Positions 2,802 to 10,800 of a DNA stretch of 64,000 nt are shown in pieces. A program made the translations under genes and the position numbers. The stretch spans positions 234,682 to 298,681 of the forward strand of contig NZ_GL538208.1 of the NCBI RefSeq assembly GCF_000165735.1, given 5' to 3'. Numbering within the stretch: the stretch's first letter is position 1; each line of letters begins with the position of its first letter. Origin of the DNA: Megasphaera micronuciformis F0359. Lineage in GTDB: Bacteria > Bacillota > Negativicutes > Veillonellales > Megasphaeraceae. Under the pieces are notes generated by a model. That model searched no databases. It was not told the origin of the DNA and worked only from the letters and a program-made list of their open reading frames with translations.

Positions 2802-2834
2802 AAGTAGAAAAATATTGTGATAGGAGCGAAAATA

Positions 2835-5213
2835 GTGATTAAAGATATATTAGGTCTTAAAATAGAGGGCAGAAATTTTGCTGATTCAAAAAACTTAGGT
2901 TTATTCAATAGTGAAAAGGGATATGTTAAAGCAACATTGCTTTATGGCCGTAATGGGGCAGGTAAGAGTACGATTGCAAAAGCTGTGAGGCTCATTACGG
3001 GAAATGCTGATGATAAGGATATAAGTGCTAATTTTTATAATAGAGATAATGAAAAAGTTACATTATCTGGAACAGATAATATTTTTGTGTTTGACGAGAA
3101 GTTTGTAGAAGAGAACGTCCGTATTGAAGGCAATCTTGAATCTATTGCGATCTTAGGAGAACAAGTGAGCTTAACACAGGAGATTGGAGAAGTAAAGAAG
3201 AAGTTAGATGAGGCACGAAAGTTAGTAGAAAGTCGAGATAGAGAATTTCAAGAGTACATAGATAAGAAGAATCCAAAAGCTCCTCAACTTTATCACGATA
3301 GGATATGTGAGATTCTTAGAGGTGATGACGGATGGGCAGGTAGAGACCGGAAGATAAAAAATAACAAGACTAATACCCCAGTGAAAGATGATACATATGA
3401 AAAATTTATTGAACTTGAACCTGAAAAAGAAAAGAAGGACCTAGATGCCGACTTTGAAAGTACGCTGAAAAAATTAGAGGCTGCGAGGGACGGCTGTAAC
3501 AAGATAGCTGAGGAAATTCCGACTGTTCCCGAATCTTATAAACAAGATACGGTTACGCTTGCGAATAAATTAATAAAAGAAAAGATTGAAAAGCCTGAGT
3601 TATCGGATAGAGAAAAGATTCTATTAGATTTGGTGACTGGAGGAAAGTCGGTAGAACTACAAGAAAGGGAAAAGTGTCTGAGTGATAAGAACAATACTTT
3701 TTGCCCGTATTGTTTACAGGATTTAACAGTAGATTATAAGGAGAAATTAGTAAGAAAGATTCAAAAGGTATTGACTGATAAGGTTAAGAATCATCAGGTA
3801 CAATTGAAAAATCTGAAGTACAATAAATTAGAATTCGACCTTTCATTCTTTTCATCTTTAAAATCATACCAACAATGCGATGAATTATTGAAGAAAATCA
3901 ATGATACTATAGATACTAATAATGAGATAATCCAGAAGAAGATAGATAATCCCTATGTACCCCTTAATGATAAAGATATTTCTAATGTGGCAGAGCTAAT
4001 AAAGAAGTTAAATACTAAGCTGGATAATCTTAAAAAAGAAAAAGATATACATAATACCAAAGTAGGAGATATAGAGGGGTATAAAAATACGCTGACGGAT
4101 ATAAATGAACAACTTGCGTATTACGAGATAATTAAAGATTGTGAACAGTTTAAGATACAGAAAATAGAGTATGATAAGGCAAAAAAGTGTCTGGATGAAG
4201 CTAAGAGCTATAAAGATGAGCAAGAAGAAGTCTTAAAGGAGTTGAATGAAAAAAGAAAGAATTTCAAGATTGCTATTGATGTTATTAATAAAGCATTACA
4301 ATATATATTTTTTACTGAAAATAGGTTAGCTATTAAATCTGACGGTGATAGTTATAAAGTTTTATCAAATGGGGAAATGGTATCACCACAGCAGATTTCT
4401 GTCGGGGAACGTAATATATTAGGACTATGTTATTTTTTTGCAAAAATAATGGAAAAAAGAGATGAAAATAGTGTCTATGGTGATGAAAATTTGCTTATAA
4501 TTGACGATCCGATATCCAGTTATGACTTTGAAAATAGGGTTGGGATTTTGTCTTTTTTAAAGTTTGAGCTTGCACAGATTCTCAATGGAAATAAATACAG
4601 CAGGGCTATTGTGATGACGCATGATTTGTCAACTCTTTTTGAAGTAACAGATATTTTCAAAGAATTGGGGGACGAGTGGAAGCAAAAATTTAAAAAAATA
4701 AATCCAGAGTACTGCACTTTAGAACTTAAAGATTGTCGATTAATCTGCATTGATACAAAGGGGAAGAAAGAATATACTGAACTTCTTACACAAGTCTATC
4801 GTTACGGAAGCGATGAATCCCATGATAATGATATCGTTATTGGTAATGTGATGAGGCAAGTACTTGAAGCTTTCTCAACTTTTGAGTATAGACACGGAAT
4901 TGCCAAGGTCTCAACCGACGATAAGATTTTGTCGCAAATACCACCGGTGTATATCGATTACTTTAAGAACTTAATGTATCGATTAGTATTACATGGAGGT
5001 AGTCATAAAGAAGAACAAGTAAAGAAGTTAAATATTAATTTCTTCTCAGTTATTTCACCAGAGGAGAAGAGAAGAACAGCAAAAGACATAATTTGCTTTA
5101 TGTATTTATTAAATAAAGCACATGTCCTTGCTCACTTAAAGGAAATTAATAATGTTGAAGTAATTATTGATAAATGGATTAAAGACTTGGAAAAGAGTGT
5201 GGTAGTCATGTAA
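2835..5213 (+). CDS. RloC/PrrC-like AAA ATPase, candidate anticodon nuclease
   Basis: A 792-residue cytoplasmic protein with ABC/SMC-type ATPase halves split by long coiled coils. Visible motifs are Walker A GRNGAGKST near residues 38-46, a CPYC pair at C290/C293 inside the coiled coil (like a zinc hook), an SVGERN signature, Walker B LLIIDDPISS, and MTHD. The C-terminal part has R674-x3-E678 and later H720/H724, which resembles the Arg-Glu-His set of PrrC/RloC tRNA anticodon nucleases. Size and zinc hook fit RloC better than the 396-residue PrrC. Such proteins guard type I restriction systems and cleave tRNA when restriction is blocked; hsdR lies just downstream. GTG 2835 has GGAG eight bases upstream. 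The gene is markedly AT-rich, suggesting transfer. Alternative: an AAA_13 ATPase without nuclease activity. Confidence 0.7.
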   Translation: MIKDILGLKIEGRNFADSKNLGLFNSEKGYVKATLLYGRNGAGKSTIAKAVRLITGNADDKDISANFYNRDNEKVTLSGTDNIFVFDEKFVEENVRIEGNLESIAILGEQVSLTQEIGEVKKKLDEARKLVESRDREFQEYIDKKNPKAPQLYHDRICEILRGDDGWAGRDRKIKNNKTNTPVKDDTYEKFIELEPEKEKKDLDADFESTLKKLEAARDGCNKIAEEIPTVPESYKQDTVTLANKLIKEKIEKPELSDREKILLDLVTGGKSVELQEREKCLSDKNNTFCPYCLQDLTVDYKEKLVRKIQKVLTDKVKNHQVQLKNLKYNKLEFDLSFFSSLKSYQQCDELLKKINDTIDTNNEIIQKKIDNPYVPLNDKDISNVAELIKKLNTKLDNLKKEKDIHNTKVGDIEGYKNTLTDINEQLAYYEIIKDCEQFKIQKIEYDKAKKCLDEAKSYKDEQEEVLKELNEKRKNFKIAIDVINKALQYIFFTENRLAIKSDGDSYKVLSNGEMVSPQQISVGERNILGLCYFFAKIMEKRDENSVYGDENLLIIDDPISSYDFENRVGILSFLKFELAQILNGNKYSRAIVMTHDLSTLFEVTDIFKELGDEWKQKFKKINPEYCTLELKDCRLICIDTKGKKEYTELLTQVYRYGSDESHDNDIVIGNVMRQVLEAFSTFEYRHGIAKVSTDDKILSQIPPVYIDYFKNLMYRLVLHGGSHKEEQVKKLNINFFSVISPEEKRRTAKDIICFMYLLNKAHVLAHLKEINNVEVIIDKWIKDLEKSVVVM

Positions 5214-5370
5214 GCTTGTAGTTATTGGTTCGTGTGAAAGTATAGAGGCGATATAATTAGAAATTTTACTTCTTTGAACTCTTGGATGAGATCTATTCCG
5301 CAAGGAAATATATGTAATGTGTAATATAAAATATATGTTAAAATAAAAATAGTTTTAAATCATAGATAGT

Positions 5371-5384
5371 TGCCGTAGACGGCA
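5371..5384. promoter_or_regulatory. inverted repeat just upstream of hsdR
   Basis: TGCCGT-AG-ACGGCA lies about 26 bases before the hsdR start, in an AT-rich 197-base gap that holds no gene. It could be an operator or a small RNA hairpin; I see no family match. Confidence 0.35.
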
Positions 5385-5410
5385 TAGATATAGCACTTGG
5401 GAGGCAGGCC

Positions 5411-8400
5411 ATGAGGGAACTTGATTTTGAGGATAAGTTGATTGATTATTTGACGACTGGGACGATTACTCCTGTGCGAGACGGACAGATTGCCGAAGGG
5501 CAGTTAAAATATGGACCGATTAAGACAAAGATATGGAAGTACGAACCGAATATTAAGACTACCGAAGATCTGTGGAATAATTTTCGGTCTATTTTGTATA
5601 CCCTTAATCAGGATAAGTTGGACCGGCCTCTTAGTGATATTGAATTTAATCAAGTAAAGTCAGTTATTAGCAACCTTAAAACTCCGTATGAAGCTGGTCA
5701 ATTTTTGTATGGCCTCAACGGTGTTTCCCAGGTAGAAGTGGACTTAGACGATGGACGGCATGTGTTTCTGACGGTCTTTGATCAAAAGCAAATTGGAGCA
5801 GGCAATACGCAGTACCAAGTAGTGAATCAAATAAGTAGAGAACCGAAGATAACAGGCCGCCCGTCACGCCGCTTTGACACGACTATGCTTATTAATGGCC
5901 TACCGATTATTCAAATTGAAGAAAAGGCGGATACACACGATGTAAACGAAGCCTTAAATCAAATGCATCAATATATTGGTGAGCGACAGTATACGGATAT
6001 TTTCTCGACCTTGCAGATCCTTGTGGCCATTACACCGAATGATGTGAAATACATGGCGAATACGACGGCCGATAAATTCAACAAAGATTTCGCTTTTCGT
6101 TGGCAAGATAGAGATAATAAGCCCGTTCGTAATTGGAAAGAGTTTGCAGACTTAATGCTCAGCATCCCTATGGCTCACCAAATGGCTACAAACTTTATGA
6201 TTCTCGACGGAACGAAAAATAAGCAAATGATTAAGGTCATGCGCCCCTATCAGGTTTATGCAACCCAGGCTGTTTTAGCAAAACTTAAACAAGCTGATTT
6301 TTCCGTGGGAACGAATAAGCTGGGCTACATATGGCATACAACTGGCTCAGGCAAGACCATTACAAGCTTTAAGACGGCATGGCTTGCCAGTCGTATGCCT
6401 CAGGTGGATAAGGTTGTCTTCGTTGTCGACCGTATTGCCTTGACGCGTCAAACTGATGAAAATTATCGGGCTTACGATCCGTCAGCTGATGCAGATGCAG
6501 GCATAAAGGGAAGCGTAGAAAGTACGGAAAGTACGAGGGACTTGGAACGGAAGCTAAAGAGCAAGGACATGTCCATCATCGTCACATCCGTACAAAAGCT
6601 GGGCACCTTGGTTAAGCGAAAGAGATTTGAAGTTCCGGATAAACACTATGTGTTTATTGTCGATGAGGCTCATCGGTCTACAGGTGGAGAAAACTTTGAG
6701 ATGATTCAGAAAAAGTTTAGGCATGCCGCTTGGATTGGCTATACAGGAACGCCCATGTTTGATGATGTAGTGAGCAAGACAGCGCCTCGTACAGAAGATA
6801 TTTTCGGACCTTTATTACATGCTTATACCATTCGTGAAGCCATTGCTGATAGAAACGTTTTGGGCTTTAAGGTCGACTTTGAAACGACCATTAATGAAGA
6901 GCAAATGAAGTCCGAATATCTACCGGCTTTTTATAAGGAGCAATATCCCGATTGGTCGGAAGAAAAAATTCAAAATAAGATAGAAAACATGACAGATGAA
7001 GACATGGACGATATGGTTGAACCGAGTATTTATGATGAAAACATAGACCATGTACGCCTTGTCGTAGAAGATATCTTTAAGAATTGGCGCAATCGTTCGA
7101 ACGAAGGGAAATACAATGCCCTCTTTACGACCCATGTCGGTGGTAACAAGGCGAGTACGCCCATGGCTATGATGTATTTTAATGAGTTCCAACGAGTCAA
7201 TAAAGAACGGGTAGAGCAAGGCTTGTTTACCTTAAAGACAGCCGTGACCTTTAGCCAGTCTACGAATAATGGAGATTACCAAAAAGTAACCAATGACGGA
7301 CTTTGGTCGGCCATGCAAGTATATAACGAACAATTTGGTACGGCTTTTGGGTTAGATGATACGTCAGCTTATACGCAAGATGTGGCCAGCCGTTTGAATC
7401 GAACGGCAATAGACGGAAACTTCTTGGATATTGTTATTGTCGTAGACCAGCTGCTCACAGGGTTTGACGCGCCGCAAATGAATACCCTATATGTGGATCG
7501 CACTTTGAAAAATGCCCTTCTCATACAGGCTTATTCGCGGACTAACCGAGTGGCAGATATGAAAGAAAAGCCGTGGGGGAGAATCGTAAATTACCGCTGG
7601 CCTGCGTACAATGAAAGGCTTATGAACAAGGCACTCGCCATTTATGCAGACAAAACGTCGGCAGAATTAAAAAATAGAATAGACCCTGGCACTACAGATC
7701 CGGATAAACAGAAATTAGTTGAGACAGGAGTATTAGCCAATTCATTTAAAGCTGAATTGGCTAATACTCGGGCCATTGTCAGCGAAATAGCCAGCATAAC
7801 AGAACAGTTTACGGCTGTTCCGGCCAGTGAAGGAATGCAGGAACGAATGGCTGAACTCATGCGTGATTATAGCCGTGCTGTATCCCGCTTGAAACAATAT
7901 AACCATGAAACTGAAAATGGTGAAGAAGGTGGATTTAATTACGATCGGCCCGAACAACTCATAGAAGCACTCGGCATGACCGTTGAAGAAGAGTCCATGC
8001 TTTCCAACTCCTTATATAACGAGCTGAAAGAAAAGATGGCAGAACGAAAACAAATTCCCGTCTATCAGATTGAGTTAGCCATGACTCATGTTAAAGACGT
8101 ACAGGTCAACTATGATTACTTAACAGAACTAGTAGAAAACCTCTTGAACTATGTCCATGATGGCGAAGAAGAAAAAGCTCAAGAAACGAGAGAAAAGATT
8201 TACGACTTTACGAAGTCCATGGATGACAGAGCCTATGCCAAAGAAATCAACAACGCTGCCGATGCCATTGTTAAGGGACATTATCCGGCAGCTGGCACCG
8301 AGTTAACCTATCCCGTAAAGCTGAGTAAAAGTGATGACATTATTAGGGCTGCCAATGAAGTGGTACTTGGAGACCAAATATTCAATTTCCGATTGCAATG

Positions 8401-8635
8401 GGGCATTGTCGATGTTGTGTCCAATGAAGAGTTACAGGCTCTTATTGCCGGGCACACATACGGTAGAAACGATTTAGATTCAGAGGGAAAACTTGGCAAA
8501 ATAAAACGTGCAGGAGCCAAGGAATATGAGGCAAAAGCACAAGACAAGGCCATTAGATCCCTCAAAAAAGTAGAATATAGGAATCAATTGGATTTAGCCA
8601 TTTATAAATTGGCAGATTCCATGGTAGAACCGTAG
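5411..8635 (+). CDS. hsdR: type I restriction enzyme R subunit (HsdR)
   Basis: The motor and nuclease subunit of a type I restriction system, 1074 residues, close to the type IC size. The N-terminal PD-(D/E)xK nuclease is readable as D156 with E170-E-K172 in QIEEKAD. The helicase part has Walker A TGSGKT (residues 311-316), DEAH at 418-421 and later motifs such as YTGTPMF, LLTGFDAP and QAYSRTNR. GGGAGG precedes the ATG. It should pull DNA past the HsdM2S complex and cut it. Only hsdS follows, 35 bases downstream; hsdM is not in this window, so activity would need a methyltransferase encoded elsewhere. Base composition is intermediate between the AT-rich ATPase and the chromosome. Confidence 0.95.
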   Translation: MRELDFEDKLIDYLTTGTITPVRDGQIAEGQLKYGPIKTKIWKYEPNIKTTEDLWNNFRSILYTLNQDKLDRPLSDIEFNQVKSVISNLKTPYEAGQFLYGLNGVSQVEVDLDDGRHVFLTVFDQKQIGAGNTQYQVVNQISREPKITGRPSRRFDTTMLINGLPIIQIEEKADTHDVNEALNQMHQYIGERQYTDIFSTLQILVAITPNDVKYMANTTADKFNKDFAFRWQDRDNKPVRNWKEFADLMLSIPMAHQMATNFMILDGTKNKQMIKVMRPYQVYATQAVLAKLKQADFSVGTNKLGYIWHTTGSGKTITSFKTAWLASRMPQVDKVVFVVDRIALTRQTDENYRAYDPSADADAGIKGSVESTESTRDLERKLKSKDMSIIVTSVQKLGTLVKRKRFEVPDKHYVFIVDEAHRSTGGENFEMIQKKFRHAAWIGYTGTPMFDDVVSKTAPRTEDIFGPLLHAYTIREAIADRNVLGFKVDFETTINEEQMKSEYLPAFYKEQYPDWSEEKIQNKIENMTDEDMDDMVEPSIYDENIDHVRLVVEDIFKNWRNRSNEGKYNALFTTHVGGNKASTPMAMMYFNEFQRVNKERVEQGLFTLKTAVTFSQSTNNGDYQKVTNDGLWSAMQVYNEQFGTAFGLDDTSAYTQDVASRLNRTAIDGNFLDIVIVVDQLLTGFDAPQMNTLYVDRTLKNALLIQAYSRTNRVADMKEKPWGRIVNYRWPAYNERLMNKALAIYADKTSAELKNRIDPGTTDPDKQKLVETGVLANSFKAELANTRAIVSEIASITEQFTAVPASEGMQERMAELMRDYSRAVSRLKQYNHETENGEEGGFNYDRPEQLIEALGMTVEEESMLSNSLYNELKEKMAERKQIPVYQIELAMTHVKDVQVNYDYLTELVENLLNYVHDGEEEKAQETREKIYDFTKSMDDRAYAKEINNAADAIVKGHYPAAGTELTYPVKLSKSDDIIRAANEVVLGDQIFNFRLQWGIVDVVSNEELQALIAGHTYGRNDLDSEGKLGKIKRAGAKEYEAKAQDKAIRSLKKVEYRNQLDLAIYKLADSMVEP

Positions 8636-8670
8636 TGTAAGCATATAAGTAAGAATAATAGGAGGTACAG

Positions 8671-9228
8671 ATGGAAGAGAAAAAATTAGTACCGAAATTA
8701 AGGTTCCCTGGGTTCACTGAACCTTGGGAACAGCGTAAGTTGGGGGAGGTTGCGGATATTATAGGTGGTGGCACACCGAGTACATCTTTTGCGGACTATT
8801 GGGATGGAGACATAGATTGGTATTCACCTGTAGAAATTGGTTCTAACCGCTATGTATCCGATAGTATTCGTAAAATTACTAAGTTAGGATTGGAGAAAAG
8901 TTCGACTAAAATTTTACCAGTAGGAACGGTATTATTTACCTCAAGGGCAGGCATTGGTAATACTGCCATTCTGAGAAAAGAAGGGTGTACAAATCAGGGA
9001 TTTCAGTCCATTATTCCCAGAAAAAATATTTTGGACACCTATTTTTTATATACCTTAACACCTCAATTAAAACGTTATGGTGAACTTATGGGGGCTGGGT
9101 CTACATTTGTTGAAGTATCTGGTAGACAAATGGAAAAAATGCCTTTAAATATTCCATCTTTAGAGGAACAGAAAAAAGTCGGTAAGTTATTCGAAATTTT
9201 AGATGACAGCATCACCCTTCATCAGTAA
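8671..9228 (+). CDS. hsdS: type I specificity subunit HsdS, half-length, expressed copy
   Basis: A 185-residue protein with one target-recognition domain, against about 400 residues and two domains in usual HsdS. The start LVPKLRFPGFTEPWEQRKLG is a classic HsdS N-terminus, and SLEEQKKVGKLFEILDDSIT is the conserved helical spacer. The frame stops at TAA directly after LHQ; the silent copy reads GAA at that position, so this stop looks acquired. Half-size HsdS proteins can act as dimers in known truncated systems. It sits behind hsdR with AGGAGG. Inverted repeats at 8722 and 9211 match the silent copy at 10199-10738, so its recognition domain should be exchangeable by inversion. Confidence 0.85.
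   Translation: MEEKKLVPKLRFPGFTEPWEQRKLGEVADIIGGGTPSTSFADYWDGDIDWYSPVEIGSNRYVSDSIRKITKLGLEKSSTKILPVGTVLFTSRAGIGNTAILRKEGCTNQGFQSIIPRKNILDTYFLYTLTPQLKRYGELMGAGSTFVEVSGRQMEKMPLNIPSLEEQKKVGKLFEILDDSITLHQ
8722..8741 (+). repeat. outer inverted repeat, left copy (hsdS inversion site)
   Basis: CCTTGGGAACAGCGTAAGTT, coding for PWEQRK in HsdS. The exact reverse complement is at 10704-10723. Both copies are read in the same codon phase by their hsdS frames, so recombination keeps the frame open. Confidence 0.9.
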
Positions 9229-9239
9229 AAGTCATTTCC
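9211..9239 (+). repeat. inner inverted repeat, left copy
   Basis: ATCACCCTTCATCAG plus 14 further bases match the reverse complement of 10218-10246 at 26 of 29 positions. One mismatch creates the TAA that ends the expressed hsdS. Confidence 0.8.
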
Positions 9240-9250
9240 ACACATTTTTA

Positions 9251-10171
9251 CTAGGTTAACCCTGATAGGGATCTCATGACTAAATCAATATCTCGGTTTT
9301 CTAGTTCTTGAATGATATGTAAATAGGTCTTTTGGGTCGTTGTCATGCTCGCATGACCCAATCGTCTGGCTACGCTGGCAATGGAAACGCCGGCGAAGAG
9401 TAAGAGGGAGGCATGGGTATGTCTTAGGCCATGAATGGATATAACGGGTATGTTTTGGGCCTTGCAATGGCGAGCTAATATACTGTTTACCGTAGAGTTA
9501 AAGACACGGCCTCGAATAAAAATCGGTTCGTCTTCAGGTAGGCCCTTGATTAGTTCGGAAAATTGGATGATAGTTTGCCAATCAAGTTGTATTTTCCGCA
9601 CAGATGACTTGTTCTTCGTCGGCATGAACCCTCCCTTCCCTTTATAATCCCACGTCCGCTCCACCGACAAGGACTGTCTGGCAAAATCAAAGTCTTTAGG
9701 CGTTAAGGCCAGGGCTTCAGAAAATCGCATACCTGTTTTGGCAATTAATAGAATCAGCCAGTCCCAATTGATTTTCGGCGGTAGTTTCAAGGATGAAAGC
9801 AAGGTGTGAAGCTCGAATTGGTTTAAGTACTTAATCTTCTTCGCCCTAGGTGTCTTCCCTTTTATAATAGCCTTACGAGTCGGATCGCGTTCAATCATGC
9901 CATCGTCAACAGCATCTAAGATGGCAGCTTTTAGCTGATGATGAAAATCCATAGTCGTTTGTCGTTCATGAACAGCTGCATAATCGTTTAATAATTTTTG
10001 ATAGGTTATGCGATTTAAATCACATAATGATAATTGAGGCACCAGTTTTTTCAACCATACTAGTGTAATCTCGTATTTTTTCATGGTTACATCTCGAATG
10101 GCCCCTTCTTTATAAATACGTATCCACCTTTCATAATATTTATAAAAAAGCTCACTTCCCTTTTCATTCAT
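9251..10171 (-). CDS. tyrosine recombinase / integrase, probable hsdS invertase
   Basis: A 306-residue phage-type integrase. An N-terminal SAM-like DNA-binding region (residues about 10-110) precedes the catalytic domain with Arg in KTGMRFSEAL, the HGLRHTH box, the LGHAS segment and the nucleophile Tyr in QKTYLHI. It lies between the two converging hsdS copies and inside the invertible 8742-10703 segment, the arrangement seen for recombinases that shuffle hsdS genes in pneumococci and Bacteroides. The most likely job is inverting DNA between the hsdS repeats rather than mobilising an element. It has its own start on the reverse strand, preceded by AAGGAGA about seven bases upstream. Confidence 0.9.
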   Translation of the reverse strand: MNEKGSELFYKYYERWIRIYKEGAIRDVTMKKYEITLVWLKKLVPQLSLCDLNRITYQKLLNDYAAVHERQTTMDFHHQLKAAILDAVDDGMIERDPTRKAIIKGKTPRAKKIKYLNQFELHTLLSSLKLPPKINWDWLILLIAKTGMRFSEALALTPKDFDFARQSLSVERTWDYKGKGGFMPTKNKSSVRKIQLDWQTIIQFSELIKGLPEDEPIFIRGRVFNSTVNSILARHCKAQNIPVISIHGLRHTHASLLLFAGVSIASVARRLGHASMTTTQKTYLHIIQELENRDIDLVMRSLSGLT

Positions 10172-10217
10172 ATTTATGTTCTCCTTCCTTTAGCAAATTT
10201 ACAGCATATATTTGTGC

Positions 10218-10246
10218 AGAAATGACTCTTCCTGATGAAGGGTGAT
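10218..10246 (-). repeat. inner inverted repeat, right copy
   Basis: Reverse-complement partner of 9211-9239, 26 of 29 positions identical. It encodes ITLHQEESF in the silent cassette. Confidence 0.8.
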
Positions 10247-10703
10247 ATCATCTGTCATGCACTTTAATAAATAACCAATTTTCTGTTGTTCTTGTACTGA
10301 TGGGACGGCTACATACTGATTCAAAAAGTCCTCAACAACTAATTCATTCATCATCGTTCCCTTTTTAGTTGAATATACTAACTTTTTTTGCATAATGGGT
10401 TCATAGTTTATATATTCTTTCCAGAAATTTAATTCCATATCTATTAAGGGGCGTAAAACAGTAAAGCGAGGCGACATAATTCCATTTCCAACATCATTCA
10501 TCACAAATCTACCAAATTTAAAATCCTTGTTTTCGTGACCTTCAAAAGCAATATCTCCGACTCTTAAAACTTTATAGTTATCTAATGATTCAGTACTAGC
10601 ACCATTTCCAGACTCACTATAAATCATTCTTGAAATAGAAATAGTTTTATTGAAAGGGAATTGTCCATCATTACGTTCTAAATTTTTTTGGAATAGAGAT
10701 CTA

Positions 10704-10723
10704 AACTTACGCTGTTCCCAAGG
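10704..10723 (-). repeat. outer inverted repeat, right copy (hsdS inversion site)
   Basis: Exact reverse complement of 8722-8741. Recombination between the two would flip about 2.0 kb including the integrase gene. Confidence 0.9.
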
Positions 10724-10764
10724 ATATGTAGAAAGCAAGAGCTCTATACTTGTTATACAACTGA

Positions 10765-10800
10765 AAAAATTCCGGTCGGATTCAATCTGACCGGAATTTT
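10765..10800 (+). terminator. terminator at the right end of the hsd inversion region
   Basis: AAAATTCCGGTC... pairs with ...GACCGGAATTTT and is followed by TC-rich sequence. It lies outside the invertible segment, so it would end rightward transcription in both orientations. Confidence 0.75.

Follow-up and report, generated by a model that had tools for sequence, protein, structure and literature searches.

Two pneumococcal type I restriction-modification (R-M) systems are the closest described counterparts of the locus analysed here. At the cod locus (SpnIII, also called ivr), type I hsdS genes are shuffled through inverted repeats with the recombinase PsrA, and the psrA gene is flanked by hsdSB, which has a single domain, and hsdSC, as set out in an excerpt of PMC4948785. 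That paper also describes excision forms of cod that encode shortened hsdS alleles, for which allele-specific methylation was not detectable. The tvr locus (SpnIV) undergoes excision through direct repeats, a process that depends on TvrR and may use shorter repeats; the resulting circle bears tvrATR together with recognition domains (excerpt of PMC6265443).

We examined a locus of this general kind in Megasphaera micronuciformis F0359 (contig NZ_GL538208.1). The stretch of DNA that was analysed, 64 kb in length, is referred to as the window, and coordinates are positions within it unless a related locus is named. The locus resembles cod in that a recombinase gene stands between hsdS copies flanked by inverted repeats. 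Cod differs in retaining hsdM, and its excisions apparently fall within the hsdS region according to passages of PMC4948785, whereas the window would have lost hsdM and both of the original recognition domains. The likeness to tvr lies in direct-repeat excision at a type I locus. In contrast to the tvr circle, however, the piece lost from the window would bear hsdM, and the recombinase stays behind. Kinship places the window recombinase with recombinases found beside hsdS genes (among the best 80 of 491 relatives), and its likeness to PsrA and TvrR is one of layout. With a probability of roughly 0.84, we consider the locus to be an excision derivative of the known invertible type I R-M kind, one that is probably unable to methylate or restrict DNA.

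Layout and inverted repeats of the locus

The HsdR subunit expected of a functional type I R-M system is encoded at 5411–8635 (+ strand). Its 1074-aa frame is open throughout, and the protein matches the Pfam domains HSDR_N, SWI2_SNF2, T1R_D3-like, and EcoR124_C as well as the NCBIfam hsdR model TIGR00348 (328.6 bits, cutoff 284.55). Downstream lies a truncated, expressed hsdS half of 185 aa (8671–9228, +; Pfam Methylase_S, 107.4 bits), before whose start AGGAGG can be read by eye. Comparison with the related loci L004, L031, L051, L140, and L141 delimits a variable target-recognition domain presently in the expressed position (8742–9210, +). A tyrosine recombinase of 306 aa follows on the opposite strand (9251–10171, −; Pfam Phage_integrase, 72.1 bits), and then a second hsdS half of 179 aa with one target-recognition domain (10199–10738, −; Methylase_S, 24.2 bits), which terminates in the recombinase-side cassette end LHQEESFLHKYML. 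The original prediction, made from the sequence letters, was of two half-length specificity genes facing each other across an integrase. That layout is real, but the second half looks like a silent cassette rather than a gene on a par with the first, because it starts with TTG and shows no ribosome-binding site by eye, compared with the AGGAGG that precedes 8671.

Both of the repeat pairs that had been predicted to bracket a tyrosine recombinase were recovered. The outer arms, 8722–8741 (+) and 10704–10723 (−), each code for PWEQRK and are exact inverted partners over 20 of 20 bases. No inverted repeat of that length arose in 500 dinucleotide shuffles of 8670–10740 with arms at least 200 apart, where the longest exact repeat was 16. 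The inner pair had been described as 26 matches in 29 bases, which our own count of the 29-nt core reproduces, and it extends to 34 nt at 88% identity (9211–9244, +; 10213–10246, −). Its left arm comprises the codons for ITLHQ, the stop codon, and non-coding bases, and a similar end occurs in the related locus of Veillonella caviae (L004).

Each outer arm begins at a codon boundary of its own ORF, giving the two a common phase, and flipping the segment at these arms in silico yields an open product of 191 aa. This bears out the proposal of an in-frame exchange of the recognition domain by inversion. An alignment of 27 sequences shows W19, E20, Q21, I181, H184, and Q185 of the window protein to be invariant. 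Invertible hsdS loci have been recognised by inverted repeats of at least 20 bp and 100% identity between hsdS copies (excerpt of PMC7394358); the window has such repeats, together with a locus-borne tyrosine recombinase predicted from sequence. The recombinase has an open frame and may therefore still exchange the two remaining cassettes. In L004 and L140, an extra WEQRKL-like DNA site was observed between the silent cassette and the recombinase start, at positions 7959 and 9543 of those loci, respectively.

Some features lie outside the repeats. A perfect 17-base hairpin with an 8-base loop is found in the interior of hsdR (7728–7769). Upstream of hsdR, a 798-aa AAA_13 ATPase is encoded at 2817–5213 (+; PF13166, 193 bits) and is a PADLOC candidate (PDC-S06). 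As anticodon nucleases of the PrrC/RloC type fall within the AAA_13 family, the gene may provide a linked second line of defence. Where the window has this gene, 10 of the 20 loci with a related HsdR have an S-like domain directly upstream of hsdR (L004, L011, L026, L028, L031, L036, L051, L056, L061, and L071, the last being part of a two-domain copy).

Related loci and the parent arrangement

Relatives of the window recombinase are encoded in 491 candidate stretches, with identities of up to 84% among the best 80. On these 80 we mapped S, M, R, and recombinase profiles built for this study. The HsdR relatives form a near group, and whether M is present was assessed in the 20 loci with a related HsdR (identity at least 46%, the window's own copies excluded); many of the contigs are short. 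S and then M stand downstream of R in 18 of the 20, and the parent order in relatives is hsdR, two-domain hsdS, hsdM, cassettes, and recombinase. One of the two exceptions, L051, has the layout of the window. In the other, L056, hsdR is open (1023 aa), hsdS is divided into two ORFs, and no M is found in the stretch examined. Its genome encodes an HsdM of 67% identity on another contig, near the contig start, so the absence of M at a locus is by itself no proof of loss.

Beyond these 20, L140 and L141, two loci that belong to the same order as the window, show the complete form, which reads R, S, S, M, S, recombinase, reversed S. Together with L004, whose host is of that order but apparently of another family, they share with the window an hsdR followed by hsdS, inward-facing cassettes, and a recombinase of 82–84% identity, and L004 additionally has the same type of inner repeat. 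Unlike the window, all three keep a two-domain hsdS and hsdM. Inward-facing cassettes flank the recombinase on either side in 11 of the 80 loci (best 80 of 491), and by this comparison a recombinase within such a segment is ordinary. The original prediction had taken this placement for a compact variant, a view that gives way before these relatives and the psrA precedent (excerpt of PMC4948785). Our literature search returned no work on hsdS inversion in Veillonella. In the Pasteurellaceae loci, hsdS and hsdM are separated by an extra ORF of about 186 aa (L063, 11210–11770, −; L031, 5157–5720, +), which has a Fic-type look by eye.

Absence of hsdM from the window and the assembly

Type I enzymes require HsdM, whose lack at this locus the original prediction passed over. 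No hsdM was found in the 64-kb window by tblastn with the HsdM proteins of two relatives (best E 0.03), a result that rules out a gene concealed there or in another frame. The assembly is a draft of 1.76 Mb in 37 contigs with 98.33% completeness. Searched with PF02384, the N6-methyltransferase family, it yielded a single protein, on contig C12. The HsdM N-terminal family PF12161 had no match in the assembly, although the same search was positive in 9 of 14 control genomes, and a Veillonella HsdM query retrieved the C12 protein alone even at E values up to 10. Over residues 313–527, this protein shares 51% identity with Veillonella HsdM. It spans positions 174–531 of the 532-position HsdM profile, has no N-terminal HsdM region, and scores 173.5 bits against the NCBIfam hsdM model TIGR00497, under the cutoff of 242.75. 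What the assembly holds of an HsdM subunit is this partial relative. The C12 gene (L001, 860–2601, −) has an HsdS-like helix motif, KLQDLKKYMLAEMFV, at its end. The ORF that comes after it, of 124 aa, has no NCBIfam match and may be a miniature specificity subunit. An adjoining gene appears terminase-like by eye.

An unassembled hsdM is possible, since the assembly is a 37-contig draft. Many cells of the population might then carry a full locus with hsdM, with the draft displaying the deleted arrangement alone. Such loci do recombine within cultures and form excised circles, as an excerpt of PMC6265443 describes for tvr, and the close HsdM of the L056 genome likewise sits on a contig apart from its locus. 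However, a common segment containing hsdM and two recognition domains, roughly 3 kb judging by L004 and L031, should have formed a contig of its own, and the assembly has no HsdM_N match at all. The locus is also internal to an 887-kb contig, away from its edges. We therefore regard a mixed population or assembly effect as unlikely. The loss of hsdM and of both original recognition domains is inferred from comparison across species.

A Rodentibacter twin and the proposed deletion

The layout of the window recurs in Rodentibacter sp. Ppn85 (L051), where R and S are followed by a reversed recombinase and a reversed S, without hsdM. A complete locus is available for comparison in Rodentibacter mrazii (L031). 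The two are 88% identical on the hsdR side and 89% in the right flank, and a piece of 92% identity passes through the first WEQRKL site. The recombinase modules are 90% identical and lie in opposite orientations, and the variable cassette domains do not align. Absent from L051 is the part of L031 from about 4045 to 7436, which comprises both recognition domains, an extra ORF, and hsdM. The L051 genome has no HsdM close to that of L031; the best of its seven PF02384 matches reaches 37% and is interrupted by a stop. L051 differs from the window in its distant host, in an extra 325-aa ORF between hsdR and half-S, and in a half-S of 192 aa ending in ITIHQRK, against 185 aa ending in ITLHQ in the window.

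Applied to a locus such as L140 or L004, the change that separates L051 from L031 would produce the layout of the window. When L004 was edited in silico by a module flip and the deletion, the product was a 184-aa ORF ending in LHQ, to be compared with the 185 aa of the window, whereas without the flip, fusion of the L004 hsdS start to cassette A gave a 207-aa ORF with a different end. In the hsdS of L140, the first WEQRKL site matches the cassette site of like orientation over 18 exact bases and the inverted cassette site over 19. The corresponding exact match between the first hsdS site of L004 and its like-oriented cassette A site is 10 bases.

We conclude that the parent probably consisted of hsdR, a two-domain hsdS, hsdM, and a module made up of a silent cassette, the recombinase, and a second silent cassette facing back. 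Crossing over of the first hsdS repeat (WEQRKL) with a WEQRKL repeat of like orientation that borders the cassette module would have removed hsdM and both hsdS domains at what is now the left outer repeat. Inversion of the module, before or after the deletion, would have produced the present orientation. The agent of the deletion was probably the window's own recombinase. Plain inversion of a complete locus was considered and rejected: it would put an inverted hsdM past 10723, where a terminator-like hairpin (10766–10800) and then a 251-aa ORF without a Pfam match are found.

Excision of hsdM and the expressed domains might also be a regular, perhaps reversible, switch to a state without methylation or restriction, with the window and L051 as snapshots of it, which we think improbable. 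In the more specific version of this idea, a programmed OFF switch, the excised hsdM-bearing circle could reinsert at the WEQRKL site in the manner of tvr circles, for which excision and reintegration are known (excerpt of PMC6265443), and the occurrence of one arrangement in two distant bacteria is in keeping with it. Set against this are the absence of hsdM from the assembly and of a close HsdM from the L051 genome, the recombinase remaining on the chromosome, and the retention of M at the locus in 18 of 20 relatives, which together make the programmed form improbable.

The end of the expressed half-gene

The deletion proposed above is also reflected in how the expressed half-gene ends. It combines the N-terminus of a normal hsdS, as far as WEQRKL, with a recombinase-side cassette that terminates at ITLHQ, and it has the end CAG TAAAAG.CATTTC in common with the reverse cassette of L004. 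S domains of expressed hsdS genes typically run on into a helix such as RKLEHLQLQKKALLQQMF (among the matches listed). Scored by a regular expression on loci from the best 80 of 491 relatives, this helix tail followed 0 of 63 recombinase-adjacent cassettes, both window halves counted, versus 73 of 96 other S domains; many of the 23 scored as tail-less appear to be further silent cassettes, and L048 is an evident miss of the expression. The tail is also absent from L060, whose contig begins just before the gene.

Aligned to 1YF2, the window protein ends two residues beyond the point matching residue 397 of 425. An AlphaFold model of the half-S has a mean pLDDT of 89.4 and a terminal helix at residues 164–184 whose tip is of low confidence, and Foldseek matches the model to 1YF2 and to the EcoR124I S subunit. 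Foldseek also finds the half-S fold in Esub1 (PDB 8vsq and 8vsr), with chains of 184–196 residues co-crystallised with Prx, which we take to be the phage protein paratox. No literature treating both Esub1 and paratox was found among the matches listed.

The original prediction saw in this locus a working two-state enzyme: two copies of a single-domain HsdS would pair and recognise a symmetrical target, which would change when the segment flips. Half-length S subunits can indeed function. Residues 1–215 of EcoR124I S, consisting of a recognition domain and the central conserved region, dimerise and read a palindrome (excerpt of PMC2877798), and a half-S is active in modification (excerpt of PMC6158711). 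The NgoAV HsdS differs in specificity between its full-length and truncated forms in an excerpt of PMC7394358, and homodimeric S subunits are reviewed in PMC3874165, as far as its excerpt goes. The window segment flips in frame, its half-S has one recognition domain as in the homodimeric subunits of EcoR124I NT and EcoDXXI, and single-domain S genes with a full helix tail stand beside an M gene in the relatives L038 and L072.

Yet the constructs described in the excerpts of PMC2877798 and PMC6158711 retain the central conserved region, and EcoR124I NT works with HsdM, while the window half-S has neither. The locus encodes no HsdS with two recognition domains and two pairing helices, no half-S with such a helix, and no homodimeric half-S of the EcoR124I NT type, with its recognition domain and conserved central region. 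The S products of the arrangement as found, after the outer flip, and after the inner flip all end in LHQ-stop or LHQEESFLHKYML, none with a tail. The locus lacks hsdM, a search of the assembly turned up no full-length cognate, and the layout agrees with deletion from an ordinary two-domain locus. The pneumococcal excision alleles, without detectable methylation in the excerpt of PMC4948785, also weigh against activity. A compact working system of this kind is accordingly very improbable in the window. That the C12 methyltransferase acts in trans with the window half-S can be practically dismissed, for although it is the sole PF02384 protein found and shares 51% identity with Veillonella HsdM across residues 313–527, it has no N-terminal HsdM region, falls under the TIGR00497 cutoff (173.5 against 242.75 bits), and has a downstream 124-aa ORF of its own.

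The idea of a symmetrical single-domain enzyme would be better tested in L038 and L072 than in the window. Their single-domain hsdS genes (L038, 1963–2550, 195 aa; L072, 3740–4387, 215 aa) have a complete helix tail and directly follow an M gene, and both loci carry the same recombinase; by their gene arrangement they are the better candidates for a natural symmetrical half-S enzyme. A different arrangement was noted in L042 (8989–9528, −) and L079 (5440–6222, −), where the gene after M is a half hsdS whose cassette-type end faces the recombinase. The hsdR of L042 is split over two ORFs, and the pair is possibly another rearranged state of the M-S-R type. As support for the tail-less form these four single-domain S genes were set aside, since none shows that the window's form works.

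Consequences of the proposed loss

As an excision derivative, the remnant in the window would produce HsdR and a single recognition domain that has neither a pairing-helix tail nor an HsdM to work with. Such a product would probably be inactive in both methylation and restriction. The recombinase could still flip the two cassettes, and the module may indeed still invert, with no enzymatic effect. In type I enzymes, HsdR by itself is inert. Joint loss of M and the expressed S should therefore be harmless, and the loss would be tolerated because HsdR without HsdM is expected to do nothing. The frames of hsdR, half-S, and recombinase are all open, which suggests that the event is recent or that the products keep some use.

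These observations suggest how shuffling loci may silence themselves permanently: where hsdM lies between like-oriented hsdS repeats, it can be lost by one crossover. That the arrangement is found in two bacteria so distant suggests that this path of decay recurs. Surveys that score inverted repeats in hsdS as phase-variable systems should verify that hsdM is present.
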